NCBI RefSeq assembly: GCF_032854445.1
Contig: NC_088302.1
Location: forward strand, 1,302,001-1,366,000
Source of the DNA: Liolophura sinensis
Taxonomy: Eukaryota > Mollusca > Polyplacophora > Chitonida > Chitonidae
Length of the DNA stretch: 64,000 bases
Direction of reading: 5' to 3'
Shown here: positions 313-63,300 of the stretch, one piece after another
How positions within the stretch are numbered: position 1 is the first letter of the stretch
How the letters are laid out: each line of letters opens with the position of its first letter
Notes under the pieces: generated by a model
Database searches by the model: none
Told to the model about the DNA's origin: nothing
Seen by the model: the letters and a program-made list of their open reading frames with translations, nothing else
Made by a program: the position numbers and the translations under genes

Positions 313-3300
313 GTGTGTGCTCATTTACCTGGATTGATATTGATTGATAAGATCTATACATGTTTGTCACTTAGGGTGTATTTACATGTAAGTTATTTTT
401 TCCACAAGTGTTTATAATAATGTGTTTATTTATCTAAGGTAGCTTGGTCAGTTTACGATGAAGCTGTTCCTGCTCAAGGTCTTTGCAGAGAAAACAATAT
501 ATAGCAAATGTGTTTCAGAGTGCAATCGAACAATTCATCAGTATGTATAAAACAAAATAAAGCCTCGTGGTTGGAAAAGTGAAGCTACATACATTCATAC
601 ATACAAAAAGCAACAACTTGACCAATAGTGCTTTCTCTGCGACTGTCCCAAGCAGCAGGAGAGGTGGGCTAGTGAGAGACGGCCCATTACCGACAGCGTC
701 CTGCTCCCCAGCTGGGTGGAATCTCGTACACACATGTACAGAGAACAAAACACATGATCATCTGTTAACCTTTTCGCCCATAATACTGATTTTACATTGC
801 GTTTATATGGTGTGGAAACTCCTGCCCCTACTGCACCAAAATGTGCATGAATTTTGTAGTCATCTTGCTGTACCAGTGCAGGCTTGGAGATTGATTAGAC
901 GTGAGAGACAAAACCTGCATCAGTGCTATATGTTCTCCAGTGGCATACTATCAACAGTTACCAGTAAGAATGGATCTATGTAACCTCATTATAGGGTGTA
1001 GAGAGTAGAATGTCTGTTAGAACCATAACTGATGTCATTCAGATACATTAATACCCTGCACTTGTATGGTTCTCTAGTTATCATTATTACCAGTGTTCGA
1101 CAGAGTTAGCACACTAGCGGCACAATAACCCAGAAGCCTCCCACCAATGCATTTGCTCTGAGTTCAAGCTCATACTGGCTGCCTTTCCTCTCCCTCTACA
1201 TGGGAAGATCTGTCAGCAACAGGCAGATGGTCATGGGTATCAGCCAGGCTCTGCCTGGTTTCCTCCTACCATAATGCTGGCCACCTTCATGTAAATGAAA
1301 TATTCTTGAGTAGAGTGTAAAACACCAAATCGAATAAATAAGTAGATATATCATTATGACCTGACCATAATTTTTATTTTTTGTGTTAGAACAGGTGTGG
1401 GTCAGTCAGAGTTTGTGGTGGCTGACATGGTCGACATGTTCTGTTTACTTATACCCCCTGCAGGAGGAGATGAACTCCAGGGTAAGTTTAATCAGGGGCT
1501 TGAGGGCCTTCATTGGCTTGGCTTGGTTTGGCTTGGAAACCTTCCCTTGCTTGGGGATCAATCCTTAAATCACTTTAATTCTGATGGGAGTGTTAGAATC
1601 CTCATTGGCTTGGGGAACTCTCCCCAGTTTGGGCATCTTCCTCAGTTTGGGGAACTCTTTTCAGTTTGGGCATCCTCCTCAACGTAGAGATCCACATCAG
1701 TTTGGGGACCTTCATCAACTTGGAGACCCTCATCAGCTTTGTGACTTTTATCAGCTTTGGGACTCAACGTCATCAACGGGGGGACCTTCAGCAGTTTAGG
1801 GACCCTTATCATCTAGGGGGACCCTAATGAGCATGCAGACATTATCAGTTTTGTCAACTCATCTCTTTGGCGACCCTTATCAGTTTGAGGGAACCTTCAT
1901 CAGTTTGAGTACCTGTATTAGCTGGGAGGATCCTCAATAACTTTGAGGACCTGTATCAACTATGGGGACCCTTATCAGCTTGGGTACCTTTGTCAGCTTG
2001 GTGACCCCCATAGTCTCTAGTGTTTTAGGTTCCATGTCATCAGATGTTTGGTCTGTAGTTTAACTTCACAGGCTATAATTGACTGGTAGCATTTTAAAAT
2101 TATGTAAATCAATCATAAAGTTTGCCATAATGTGACTGAAATGTTGCTTATGTGGGACTAAGCCATAATTCATTTAATTCTAAAGTAATAATACCGTCAG
2201 TGCTCTCTTATTCTGTTTATCTCAGATTATTGCATTTTGGTTGCCTCCCTATAGGAATAAAGAAGGGCATCGTGGAGGTGGCCGATGTGGTGGTGGTGAA
2301 CAAATCTGATGGGGACTTGGTGGCAGCAGCAAGAAGGATCCAAGCAGAGTACATCAGTGCTCTGAAGTACATGAGGCACAGGTCCCACACCTGGACCCCT
2401 CAGGTGAGTACTGAGGCTGTCTAATAACCAAGTACATCTGCACTCTAAAGTACATGAGGCACAGCTCCCACACCTGGACACCTCAGGTGAGTAATGAGGC
2501 TGTCTAACAAACAAGTGCATCTGCACTCTGAAGTACATGAGGCACAGGTCCCACACCTGGACCCCTCAGGTGAGTACTAAGGCTGGCTAATAACCAAGTA
2601 CATCTGCACTCTGAAGTACATGAGACACAGGTCCCACACCTGGACCCCTCAGGTGAGTACTGAGGCTGTCTAATAACCAAGTACATCTGCACTCGGAAAT
2701 CTATGAGGCACAGCTCCCACACCTGGACCCCTCAGGTGAGTAATGAGGCTGTCTAACAACCAAGTGCATCTGCACCTTGAAGTACATGAGACACAGGTCC
2801 CACACCTGGACCCCTCAGGTGAGTACTGAGGCTGGCTAACAACCAGGTACATCTGCATTCTGAAGTACATGAGGCACAGGTCCCACACCTGGACCCCTCA
2901 GATGAGTACTGAGGTGGCTAACAACCAAGTGCATCTGCACTCTGAAGTACATGAGGCACAGGTCCCACACCTGGACCCCTCAGATGAATACTGAGGCTGG
3001 CTAACCACTAAGTGCATCTGCACTCTGAAGTACATGAGACTCAGGTCCCACACCTGGACCCCTCAGATGAGTACTGAGGCTGTCTAACAACTAAGTACAT
3101 CAGCGCTCTGAAGTACATGAGGCACAGGTCCACACCTGGACCCCTCAGGTGAGTAATGAGGCTGGCTAACAACCAAGTCCATCTGCACCTTGAAGTACAT
3201 GAGGCACAGGTCCCACACCTGGACCCCTCAGGTGAGTACTGAGGCAGGCTAACAACTAAGTGCATCTGCACTCTGAAGTACATGAGGCACAGGTCCCACA

Positions 3301-60300: not shown

Positions 60301-63300
60301 GGTCAGGTATCATGGAATCTGTCATCAGGAAGGGTGGGTGGTAGGGAGGCTCTTACCTGTGCTAGTCCTGTCAGGTATCACGGGGCGTGTGATCAGGAAG
60401 AATGTGTGGTAGGGAGCCTCTTACCTGTGCTAGTCCGGTCAGGTATCACAGGGTGTGTGATCAGGAAGGGTGTGTGGTAGGGAGACTCTTACCTGTGCTA
60501 GTCCTGTCAGGTATCATGGGATCTGTCATCAGGAAGGGTGTGTTGTAGGGAGGCTCTTACCTGTGCTAGTCCTGTCAGGTATCACGGGGCGTGTGATCAG
60601 GAAGGGTGTGTGGTAGGGAGACTCTTACCTGTGCTAGTCCTGTCAGGTATCACGGGGTGTGTGATCAGGAAGGGTGTGTGGTAGGGAGCCTCTTACCTGT
60701 GCTAGTCCTGTCAGGTATCACGGGGCGTGTGATCAGGAAGGGTGTGTGGTAGGGAGCCTCTTACCTGTGCTAGTCCTGTCAGGTATCACGGGGCGTGTGA
60801 TCAGGAAGGGTGTGTGGTAGGGAGGCTCTTACCTGTGCTAGTCCTGTCAGGTATCATGGGGCGTGTGATCAGGATGGGTGTGTGGTAGGGAGGCTCTTAC
60901 CTGTGCTAGTCCTGTCAGGTATCATGGGGCGTGTGATCAGTAAGGGTGTGTGGTAGGGAGGCTCTTACCTGTGCTAGTCCTGTCAGGTATCACGGGGTGT
61001 GTGATCAGGAAGGGTGTGTGGTAGGGAGGCTCTTACCTGTGTTAGTCCTGTCAGGTATCACGGGGCGTGTGATCAGGAAGGGTGTGTTTTAGGGAGACTC
61101 TTACCTGTGCTAGTCCTGTCAGGTATCACGGGGCGTGAGATCAGGAAGGGTGTGTGGTAGGGAGCCTCTTACCTGTGCTAGTCCTGTCAGGTATCACGGG
61201 GTGTGTGATCAGGAAGGGTGTGTGGTAGGGAGGCTCTTACCTGTGCTAGTCCTGTCAGGTATCACGGGGTGTGTGATCAGGAAGGGTGTGTGGTAGGGAG
61301 GCTCTTACCTGTGCTAGTCCGGTCAGGTATCACGGGGCGTGTGATCAGGAAGGGTGTGTGGTAGGGAGCGTCTTACCTGTGCTAGTCCTGTCAGGGTGTG
61401 TGGCAGGGAGGCTCTCACCTGTGCTAGTCCTGTCGGGTATCACGGGGCGTGTGATCAGGAAGGGTGTGTGGTAGGGAGACTCTTACCTGTGCTAGTCCTG
61501 TCAAGTATCATGCGATCTGTCATCAGGAAGGGTGTGTTGTAGGGAGGCTCTTACCTGTGCTAGTCCTGTCAAGTATCATGGGATCTGTCATCAGGAAGGG
61601 TGTGTTGTAGGGAGGCTCTTACCTGTGCTAGTCCTGTCAAGTATCATGCGATCTGTCATCAGGAAGGGTGTGTTGTAGGGAGGCTCTTACCTGTGCTAGT
61701 CCTGTCAGGTATCATGCGATCTGTCATCAGGAAGGGTGTGTTGTAGGGAGGCTCTTACCTGTGCTAGTCCTGTCAGGTATCACGGGGTGTGTGATCAGGA
61801 AGGGTGTGTTGTAGGGAGGCTCTTACCTGTGCTAGTCCGGTCAGGTATCATGGGATCTGTCATCAGGAAGGGTGTGTGGTAGGGAGGCTCTTACCTGTGC
61901 TAGTCCGGTCAGGTATCACGGGGCGTGTGATCAGGAAGGGTGTGCGGTAGGGAGCCTCTTACCTGTGCTAGTCCTGTCAGGTATCACGGGGTGTGTGATC
62001 AGGAAGGGTGTGTTGTAGGGAGGCTCTTACCTGTGCTAGTCCTGTCAGGTATCACAGGGTGTGTGATCAGGAGGGGTGGGTGGTAGGGAGCCTCTTACCT
62101 GTGCTAGTCCTGTCAGGGTGTGTGGCAGGGAGGCTCTTACCTGTGCTAGTCCTGTCAGGTATCACGGGGTGTGTGATCAGGAAGGGTGTGTGGTAGGGAG
62201 CCTCTTACCTGTGCTAGTCCTGTCAGGTATCATGGGATCTGTCATCAGGAAGGGTGTGTTGTAGGGAGGCTCTTACCTGTGCTAGTCCTGTCAGGTATCA
62301 TGGGATCTGTCATCAGGAAGGGTGTGTGGTAGGGAGGCTCTTACCTGTGCTAGTCCGGTCAGGTATCATGCGATCTGTCATCAGGAAGGGTGCGTGGTAG
62401 GGAGGCTCTTACCTGTGCTAGTCCGGTCAGGTATCACGGGGCGTGTGATCAGGAAGGGTGTGTGGTAGGGAGCCTCTTACCTGTGCTAGTCCGGTCAGGT
62501 ATCATGGGATCTGTCATCAGGAAGGGTGTGTTGTAGGGAGGCTCTTACCTGTGCTAGTCCTGTCAGGTATCACGAGGCGTGTGATCAGGAAGGGTGTGTG
62601 GTAGGGAGGCTCTTACCTGTGCTAGTCCTGTCAGGTATCACGGGGCGTGTGATCAGGAAGGGTATGTGGTAGGGAGGCTCTTACCTGTGCTAGTCCTGTC
62701 AGGTATCACGGGGCGTGTGATCAGGAAGGGTATGTGGTAGGGAGGCTCTTACCTGTGCTAGTCCTATCAGGTATCATGGGATCTGTCATCAGGAAGGGTA
62801 TGTGGTAGGGAGGCTCTTACCTGTGCTAGTCCTGTCAGGTATCATGGGGTCTGTGATCAGGAAAGGTATGTGGTAGGGAGCCTCTTACCTGTGCTAGTCC
62901 CGAGAGGTATCATGGGGTCTGTGATCAGGAAGGGTGTGTGGTAGGGAGGCTCTCCCCTCTCCCTCAGGCCAGCTTGTTCTTGCTCCACACACTCGGGGTT
63001 ACACTGTAACCGCTCCAGCTGGAAGCTTGTCTGTTCCCACAGGTCCCTCAGTTGAGTCATCCTGTGGGTCAGTACCTCCTTAGTCCCCACGCTCACACTC
63101 ACCTACCAGTACACAAGGGATGTGGTTCAGGCACTCCGACACAAAATACTTATTTCTATGATTGATGGTTTATGTTATACTCAAGACTATTTCAGCTCTA
63201 CGGAGGAGGCCAGCATTATGGTGGGAGGAAACAGGGCAGAGCCTGTGGGAAACTGCTGGTTGCTGGCACATGACCTTCCTACATGCTGAAGGCACAAAGT

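Follow-up and report, generated by a model that had tools for sequence, protein, structure and literature searches.

Can the edge of an exon give rise to a minisatellite, and can an intron grow by copying its own splice site? These questions are raised by a window of 64,000 bases (C8:1302001-1366000) from the chiton Liolophura sinensis, in which minisatellite arrays cross exon edges in MMAA, a raftlin-like gene and PFAS. The first-pass annotation had described five arrays of this kind. The MMAA array, the raftlin-like array and the two PFAS arrays were confirmed as real by Tandem Repeats Finder (TRF) and gene models, each with a splice edge inside. These arrays probably stem from tandem duplications over exon edges, which were tolerated since the exon-side copy still splices. 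The assembly comprises 609,464,459 bp in 632 contigs, and contig C8 measures 58,388,612 bp.

Splice edges inside minisatellite arrays

The TRF search of the window gave 85 rows at a score of at least 50, which were merged by hand into 23 arrays; short rows (e.g., 31004-31041, 44783-44824, 46413-46447, 50851-50899, 57374-57423 and 58452-58489) were left out of the merge. The merged arrays took up 30,689 of the 64,000 bases (48%). Genes modelled on GT/AG junctions were MMAA (+ strand), the raftlin-like gene (- strand), two tandem short-chain dehydrogenases (+ strand) and the 3' part of PFAS (- strand). Four of the modelled proteins were backed by Pfam, and MMAA and PFAS also by PDB. These models contain 37 splice edges, one of which (the 5' untranslated region acceptor of the raftlin-like gene) was assigned by eye. 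A splice edge lay inside 4 of the 23 arrays, namely the MMAA donor, the raftlin-like acceptor and two PFAS donors, with 13 to 65 exon bases within the array. In a separate BLAST test, only these 4 of the 37 edges had local copies (21, 30, 32 and 58), and the other 33 had none.

The MMAA exon at 2255..2403 (+) runs into an 83-bp minisatellite of 22 units at 2348..4223 (+), so that its last 56 bases and the donor CAG/GTGAGT (slash, junction) lie inside the array. Each unit consists of the exon end, the 5' splice site and 27 intron bases. The spliced model joins position 2403 to the following exon at 4842..5138 (+), which was aligned to human MMAA. The model matched Pfam MeaB at 7e-70, and human MMAA (2www) was aligned at 335 bits without a gap over the array-bearing junction, as were six other animal proteins. 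A Liolophura MMAA record was not found among the matches listed. The MMAA protein P0060 weakly matched the array units by tblastn (E 0.003-0.6).

The raftlin-like array is located at an acceptor. The last coding exon (22340..22983, -) contributes the acceptor TTTTTCCTTGCAG/GTGTGG and its first 13 bases to a 52-bp minisatellite of 31 units at 22971..24590 (-); the upstream coding exon lies at 26999..27584 (-) according to the gene model and the NCBI protein. The model had the same sequence over 409 aa as the Liolophura sinensis protein NCBI LOC135473764 and matched Pfam Raftlin. The annotated protein uses the exon-side acceptor.

For PFAS, 24 exons reconstructed the NCBI 1337-aa protein P0176 exactly, and this protein uses the exon-side donor at each of the two window arrays. 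Those exons that lie upstream of the window were spotted by eye from known PFAS sequence before they were set by P0176. Exon 20 (62889..63102, -) has its donor CAG/GTAAGA and its last 65 bases inside a 68-bp minisatellite (58940..62953, -) that occupies almost the whole of intron 20, up to exon 21 (58655..58858, -). Exon 23 (54275..54436, -) has its donor AAG/GTCAGT and its last 36 bases inside an 84-bp minisatellite of 33 units (51548..54310, -), and exon 24, which encodes the C-terminus, follows at 51025..51347 (-).

The first-pass annotation regarded the arrays as a mode of intron growth. This is a fair description because the introns were much shorter in three of the four cases when the array was collapsed to one unit: from 2438 to 645 bp in MMAA, from 4027 to 81 bp in PFAS intron 20 and from 2927 to 248 bp in PFAS intron 23. 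In these three cases, most of the intron is array sequence. The raftlin-like host intron measured 4015 bp, and 2212 bp when collapsed.

Fate of the repeated splice sites

Every copy had been said to carry the splice site. This was borne out for the 84-bp PFAS array (GT in 33/33 units), for the raftlin-like array (AG in 31/31 and TAG in 30) and for the array at PFAS exon 20, where a pattern count, which misses copies altered immediately 5' of the donor, found 59 copies, all with GT (58 CAGGTAAGA and 1 CAGGTGAGA). The MMAA array departed from it, with GT in 14 of the 22 units and AT in the other 8.

Mean pairwise identity between units was 0.91-0.95 in the window arrays. The exon-side copy was below the mean-pair identity in its comparison to the other copies in all four arrays: 0.898 vs 0.912 in MMAA, 0.847 vs 0.950 in the raftlin-like gene, 0.927 vs 0.938 at PFAS exon 23 and 0.899 vs 0.917 at PFAS exon 20. 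Orderly growth of the arrays from one end was not supported, as unit identity hardly dropped with the distance between units. In three of the four arrays, the repeated splice site was not especially conserved within the unit (rank from the top 0.41, 0.52 and 0.62), and general selection on the repeated sites was not supported for these three.

Read-through past the first donor reached a stop after 18 bp in MMAA and after 29 bp at PFAS exon 20; later donors would therefore yield truncated products. At PFAS exon 23, the frame stayed open for 212 bp beyond the first donor. There, use of the second donor would add 28 residues to PFAS, for which the NCBI cluster comprises five members. The frame of this 84-bp array is not kept, because 6 of its 33 units measure 82 bp.

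Edge arrays along PFAS and in myosin genes

The whole PFAS gene was searched again by TRF at score 80 and length 80, and the pooled counts below take the window PFAS arrays from this rerun. An edge was counted as crossed only when the array spanned it by 8 bp or more, which held for four of the 25 PFAS arrays (introns 14, 16, 20 and 23); four PFAS edge arrays had been spotted by eye before the systematic count over every PFAS intron. Among introns 1-18, which were included because their stretches adjoin the window, intron 14 had a crosser at its acceptor (29 bp) and intron 16 one at its donor (77 bp). Arrays of introns 9 and 17 looked exon-end-derived by eye and failed the 8-bp rule.

Myosin genes on five other contigs served as a further sample, in which stretches were picked by match density ahead of the search for repeats. 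With PF00063, 81 exon matches were listed, of which ten stretches covered 42, leaving 39 outside the sample. One match was split between stretches L029 and L030, and the counts used 37 or 41 matches. TRF at score 60 and length 60 gave 17 arrays, and five spanned a splice edge: a 31-bp donor array in L029, a 32-bp acceptor array with 43 copies in L033, two donor arrays in one gene of L036, and a 95-bp acceptor array with 3 copies in L037. All five, read by eye, repeat the exon edge together with GT or AG. They overlapped the hidden Markov model matches by 2, 5, 19, 14 and 58 bp, and about 15, 9, 16, 16 and 48 exon bases were seen inside them by eye. Five further myosin arrays at 51-91 bp from a match were also read by eye, and in four of them no exon sequence was seen. 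The fifth (L038) is built of units that copy the exon end with its donor; it was left out of the count because TRF places its start within the intron.

The recurrence at donors and acceptors of unrelated genes that the window had suggested extended to further introns of PFAS and to myosin loci on other contigs.

Excess over chance

Three nulls were applied to the window: present-day coordinates, all arrays collapsed to one unit, and a seed placed within its own collapsed host intron. For the 4/23 arrays of the window, the expected number was 0.31-0.61 in present-day coordinates (P 0.0002-0.003), 0.61-1.20 with arrays collapsed (P 0.002-0.03) and 1.84 conditional on the host intron (P 0.047). 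The present-day null exaggerates the excess: the host introns were lengthened by the arrays, which makes crossing appear too rare. A random seed crosses an edge of the collapsed PFAS introns with a probability of 0.79 in intron 20 (68-bp seed) and 0.44 in intron 23. As both of these introns had been very short prior to array growth, chance is not firmly excluded from the window alone, where the edge excess is suggestive only.

In the repeat-blind myosin sample, the five crossers among 17 arrays compared to 1.27 expected under the host-gap null (P 0.004) and to 0.9-1.3 over all gaps (P 0.001-0.007); undetected myosin exons would make the host gaps overlong, so that these expected crossings would be underestimated. 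For the whole of PFAS (4/25), the uniform null expected 1.14 crossers (P 0.023). In PFAS introns 1-18, 7 of the 21 arrays ended in an exon or at most 25 bp off it, and 2.65-3.47 were expected (P 0.011-0.038). Window and PFAS together gave 6/34 at the 8-bp margin, with 1.66-2.60 expected (P 0.005-0.028). Outside the window, PFAS and myosin arrays stood at exon edges in 7 of 38 cases (expected 2.42, P 0.006). In all data, 11 of the 51 intragenic arrays were at edges compared to 3.87 expected, an excess of about threefold (P 0.0004). The earlier statement that the pattern is hard to explain by chance is supported by the pooled data and is too strong for the window.

Form and genomic setting of the arrays

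Median length was 1361 bp in the 11 edge arrays against 342 bp in the 40 remaining intragenic ones (P 0.0035). The edge arrays also had more copies (31 vs 11.5, P 0.02), and their periods were 52 vs 31 bp (P 0.06).

Tandem repeats made up 48% of the window, and in six adjoining stretches (L009-L014) their share was 29-57%. Elsewhere, the cover was 1-41% with a mean of about 11% (14 stretches), and 12% in nine myosin stretches. On contig C8 (58.4 Mb), the window lies 1.3 Mb inside one of the ends, which is repeat-rich. As the myosin stretches are only 12% repeats, the edge arrays are not restricted to the repeat-rich end of C8. For another chiton, Acanthochiton rubrolineatus, the accessible text of its genome report gives 9.21% tandem repeats by TRF (PMC11545220).

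Origin of the edge arrays

The route that we propose is as follows. A segment straddling a splice junction (unit of 25-95 bp by TRF) would be duplicated in tandem. The copy beside the intact exon would stay in splicing use, and the surplus copies would fall into the intron. With splicing left to the exon-side copy, the surplus copies would be free to drift and, by slippage or unequal exchange, to multiply, and purifying selection would maintain the exon-side copy alone.

The first-pass annotation had offered two processes, namely duplication that starts at exon edges, or tolerance of arrays as long as the original junction survives. The edge excess agrees with the first. Tolerance by junction survival alone cannot raise edge arrays above intronic ones, as it predicts equal density at edges and in intron interiors; the threefold excess therefore needs an extra factor. 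We infer that this factor would be either more frequent initiation at junctions or a longer life of exon-anchored arrays, and the data fit both alike.

Several results weigh against the tolerated edge duplications. The two crossers among 21 arrays in PFAS introns 1-18 compared to 0.89-1.15 expected (P 0.22-0.32), and the whole of PFAS gave P 0.115 under the host-intron null (expected 2.02). At a 3-bp margin, window and PFAS (6/34) had an expectation of 2.41-3.63 (P 0.028-0.13, the latter under the host-intron null). The excess leans heavily on the myosin sample, whose edges were assigned by eye and in which one gene accounts for two arrays. Outside the window, edge and other arrays did not differ significantly in length (556 vs 338 bp, P 0.13), in a comparison whose 33 intronic arrays include two PFAS arrays lying in the window. 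GC content was alike between edge and other arrays (0.45 vs 0.43, P 0.28), and GC-rich exon sequence as the source of the excess was not supported on the same grounds. In MMAA, the far-end copy diverged even more (0.865) than the exon-side copy. In the unit at PFAS exon 20, the donor 9-mer was the best conserved part, which neutrality does not predict.

One alternative adds a cause to the tolerated edge duplications and is a special case of them: initiation could be coupled to splicing or transcription, through breaks, R-loops or stalled complexes at junctions. It agrees with the roughly threefold edge excess, which occurs at donors (MMAA, PFAS introns 16, 20 and 23, L029 and L036 twice) as well as at acceptors (raftlin-like, PFAS intron 14, L033 and L037). 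However, these data do not tell initiation and survival apart, and window edges had either 21-58 copies or none, young low-copy cases being absent. We consider such coupling rather unlikely.

If duplication struck anywhere and some host introns were short, about 8% of seeds would cross an edge by random placement only. The host-intron nulls named above are compatible with this (P 0.047 for the window, 0.32 for PFAS introns 1-18, 0.115 for the whole of PFAS and 0.13 at the 3-bp margin), as are the collapsed PFAS host introns of just 81 and 248 bp. Array positions relative to splice edges were compared with random placement in the sampled genes; PFAS alone did not depart from chance under the host-intron null, but the myosin sample and the combined data did so at P 0.004 and P 0.0004. 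Random placement on its own is therefore unlikely.

A selected function, in which the tandem splice sites would serve as decoys or buffers or be alternative sites under regulation, would suit the array at PFAS exon 20, with GT in every copy found and its donor as the most conserved unit part, and the 84-bp PFAS array with its 212-bp open frame. However, 8 of the 22 MMAA donors are dead, three of the four arrays lack extra site conservation, later donors would bring a stop in MMAA and at PFAS exon 20, and the 82-bp units break the frame of the 84-bp array, so that such a function appears highly improbable. An assembly artefact is scarcely credible: arrays of this kind are readily mis-assembled, and the accessible part of the amphioxus globin report describes one BflGb6 version that seemed aberrantly assembled in a draft (PMC3087553), but the chiton units differ mutually, unlike simple invented copies, even if the copy number may still be wrong, and a like pattern was found at more loci on three other contigs.

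Tolerated edge duplications followed by slippage, with largely neutral surplus copies, probably account for the arrays. A wider proposal is possible though doubtful: splice junctions could be preferred birthplaces of minisatellites in this genome, with duplication initiated or stabilised there, and introns could grow outward by copying splice sites, in a manner shared by chiton and amphioxus and perhaps general in minisatellite-rich animals.

Other repeats and genes of the region

The fifth array of the first-pass annotation, a 77-bp array of 130 units at 8715..18695 (+, TRF), was not counted as an exon-edge member. It had been said (as 8720-18690) to grade into a possible exon. Only an acceptor-like motif was found, with the AG in 123 of 130 units, and an exon junction was not supported, since ten open reading frames beside and beyond the array, the ones searched among those listed, gave zero Pfam matches above the cut-off. 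No gene was recognised in 5139-22339. Viral contigs yielded no match to a pattern derived from its unit.

The short-chain dehydrogenase genes lie in tandem at 31877-36715 and 38867-43613. Their exons 1-2 are 95-98% identical and their exons 3-5 77-85% identical, which could reflect gene conversion. Intron 1 holds a 57-bp minisatellite in one gene and a 22-bp minisatellite in the other; the arrays therefore probably turned over after the duplication.

At 19359-19711, a 69-bp array of 5 units has a donor-like CAG/GTAAAT in a 165-aa open frame, which had no Pfam match above the cut-off. A 64-bp array at 45796-46356 has an acceptor-like TTTACCTCCATTTCAG in its unit, and no gene was recognised around it. 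In the adjoining stretches L014 and L013 (C8:1289570-1293015), a 48-bp array has about 72 copies. By eye, we take it to resemble the 3' part of a tRNA-type short interspersed element (SINE) that recurs in the window; related SINE-like sequence lies at about 39380-39640. At about 6692-6840 (-) of L014, a donor region recurs 130 bp downstream with 19 identical bases, and a 61-bp unit occurs twice in between. Judged by its sequence, this could be an incipient edge array. The gene may encode an ADCK kinase, which it resembles by eye.

Comparison with known systems

The arrays make an oddity of amphioxus genes recur repeatedly in a distant animal, with a measured excess, and turn the start of minisatellites at splice sites into a testable question in any annotated long-read genome. 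They are natural experiments in splice-site choice, as in PFAS intron 20, where the splicing machinery has to choose the exon-side donor among some 59 near-identical ones. Through such arrays, an intron could swell by a simple route from less than 100 bp to several kilobases with the protein untouched.

Intron gain by tandem genomic duplication is described by the AGGT model. An example is the potato RdRp gene (PMC4974935, in part), where, as in the chiton, the duplicated segment holds splice signals. That process creates a new intron, whereas the chiton arrays lengthen existing ones; the protein alignments were gapless over the MMAA junction. In human genes of segmental duplications, internal tandem repeats at exon-intron boundaries have been described, with a mean of four 30-bp units and half of them in coding exons (PMC2812944, in part). 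Like the chiton arrays, they are minisatellites at boundaries that change intron length. Human repeats at boundaries can form novel introns, whereas the chiton protein was unchanged where it could be checked. Earthworm metallothionein genes have large minisatellite clusters within introns, similar to the chiton; the accessible text does not state an exon edge in their units (PMC12783039), and chiton units carry one.

The closest counterpart is found in amphioxus, where tandem repeats spanning exon boundaries were named mirages in Adh3. They also occur in the globins BflGb6 and BflGb9, where the mRNA stays regular and both exon ends can be affected, as the accessible text describes (PMC3087553). 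Mirages have also been reported in troponin C, and similar repeats in PGBD5 (PMC3902484, in part). By the features checked, the chiton arrays are mirages, a kind known from amphioxus. They cross a real exon edge (four in the window, 11/51 overall), their units carry the end or the beginning of an exon together with its GT or AG, though not all do, and the exon-side copy diverges from the other copies, as at the cluster boundaries in the amphioxus report (PMC3087553). As regards splicing, the NCBI raftlin-like and PFAS proteins use the exon-side site, as read from annotation. The accessible text gives 3-6 units for BflGb6 (PMC3087553), unlike the chiton window arrays, which hold 22-59 units and are as long as 4 kb; myosin arrays go down to about 3 units. 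No report of exon-edge minisatellites in molluscs turned up in the open-licence literature searched. As far as these searches show, four aspects are new, namely the host group, how large the window arrays are, how many occur per gene, and an excess that has been measured. The chiton arrays differ from the amphioxus mirages in having a mollusc host, in occurring several times per gene, and in that their frequency and excess have been measured.

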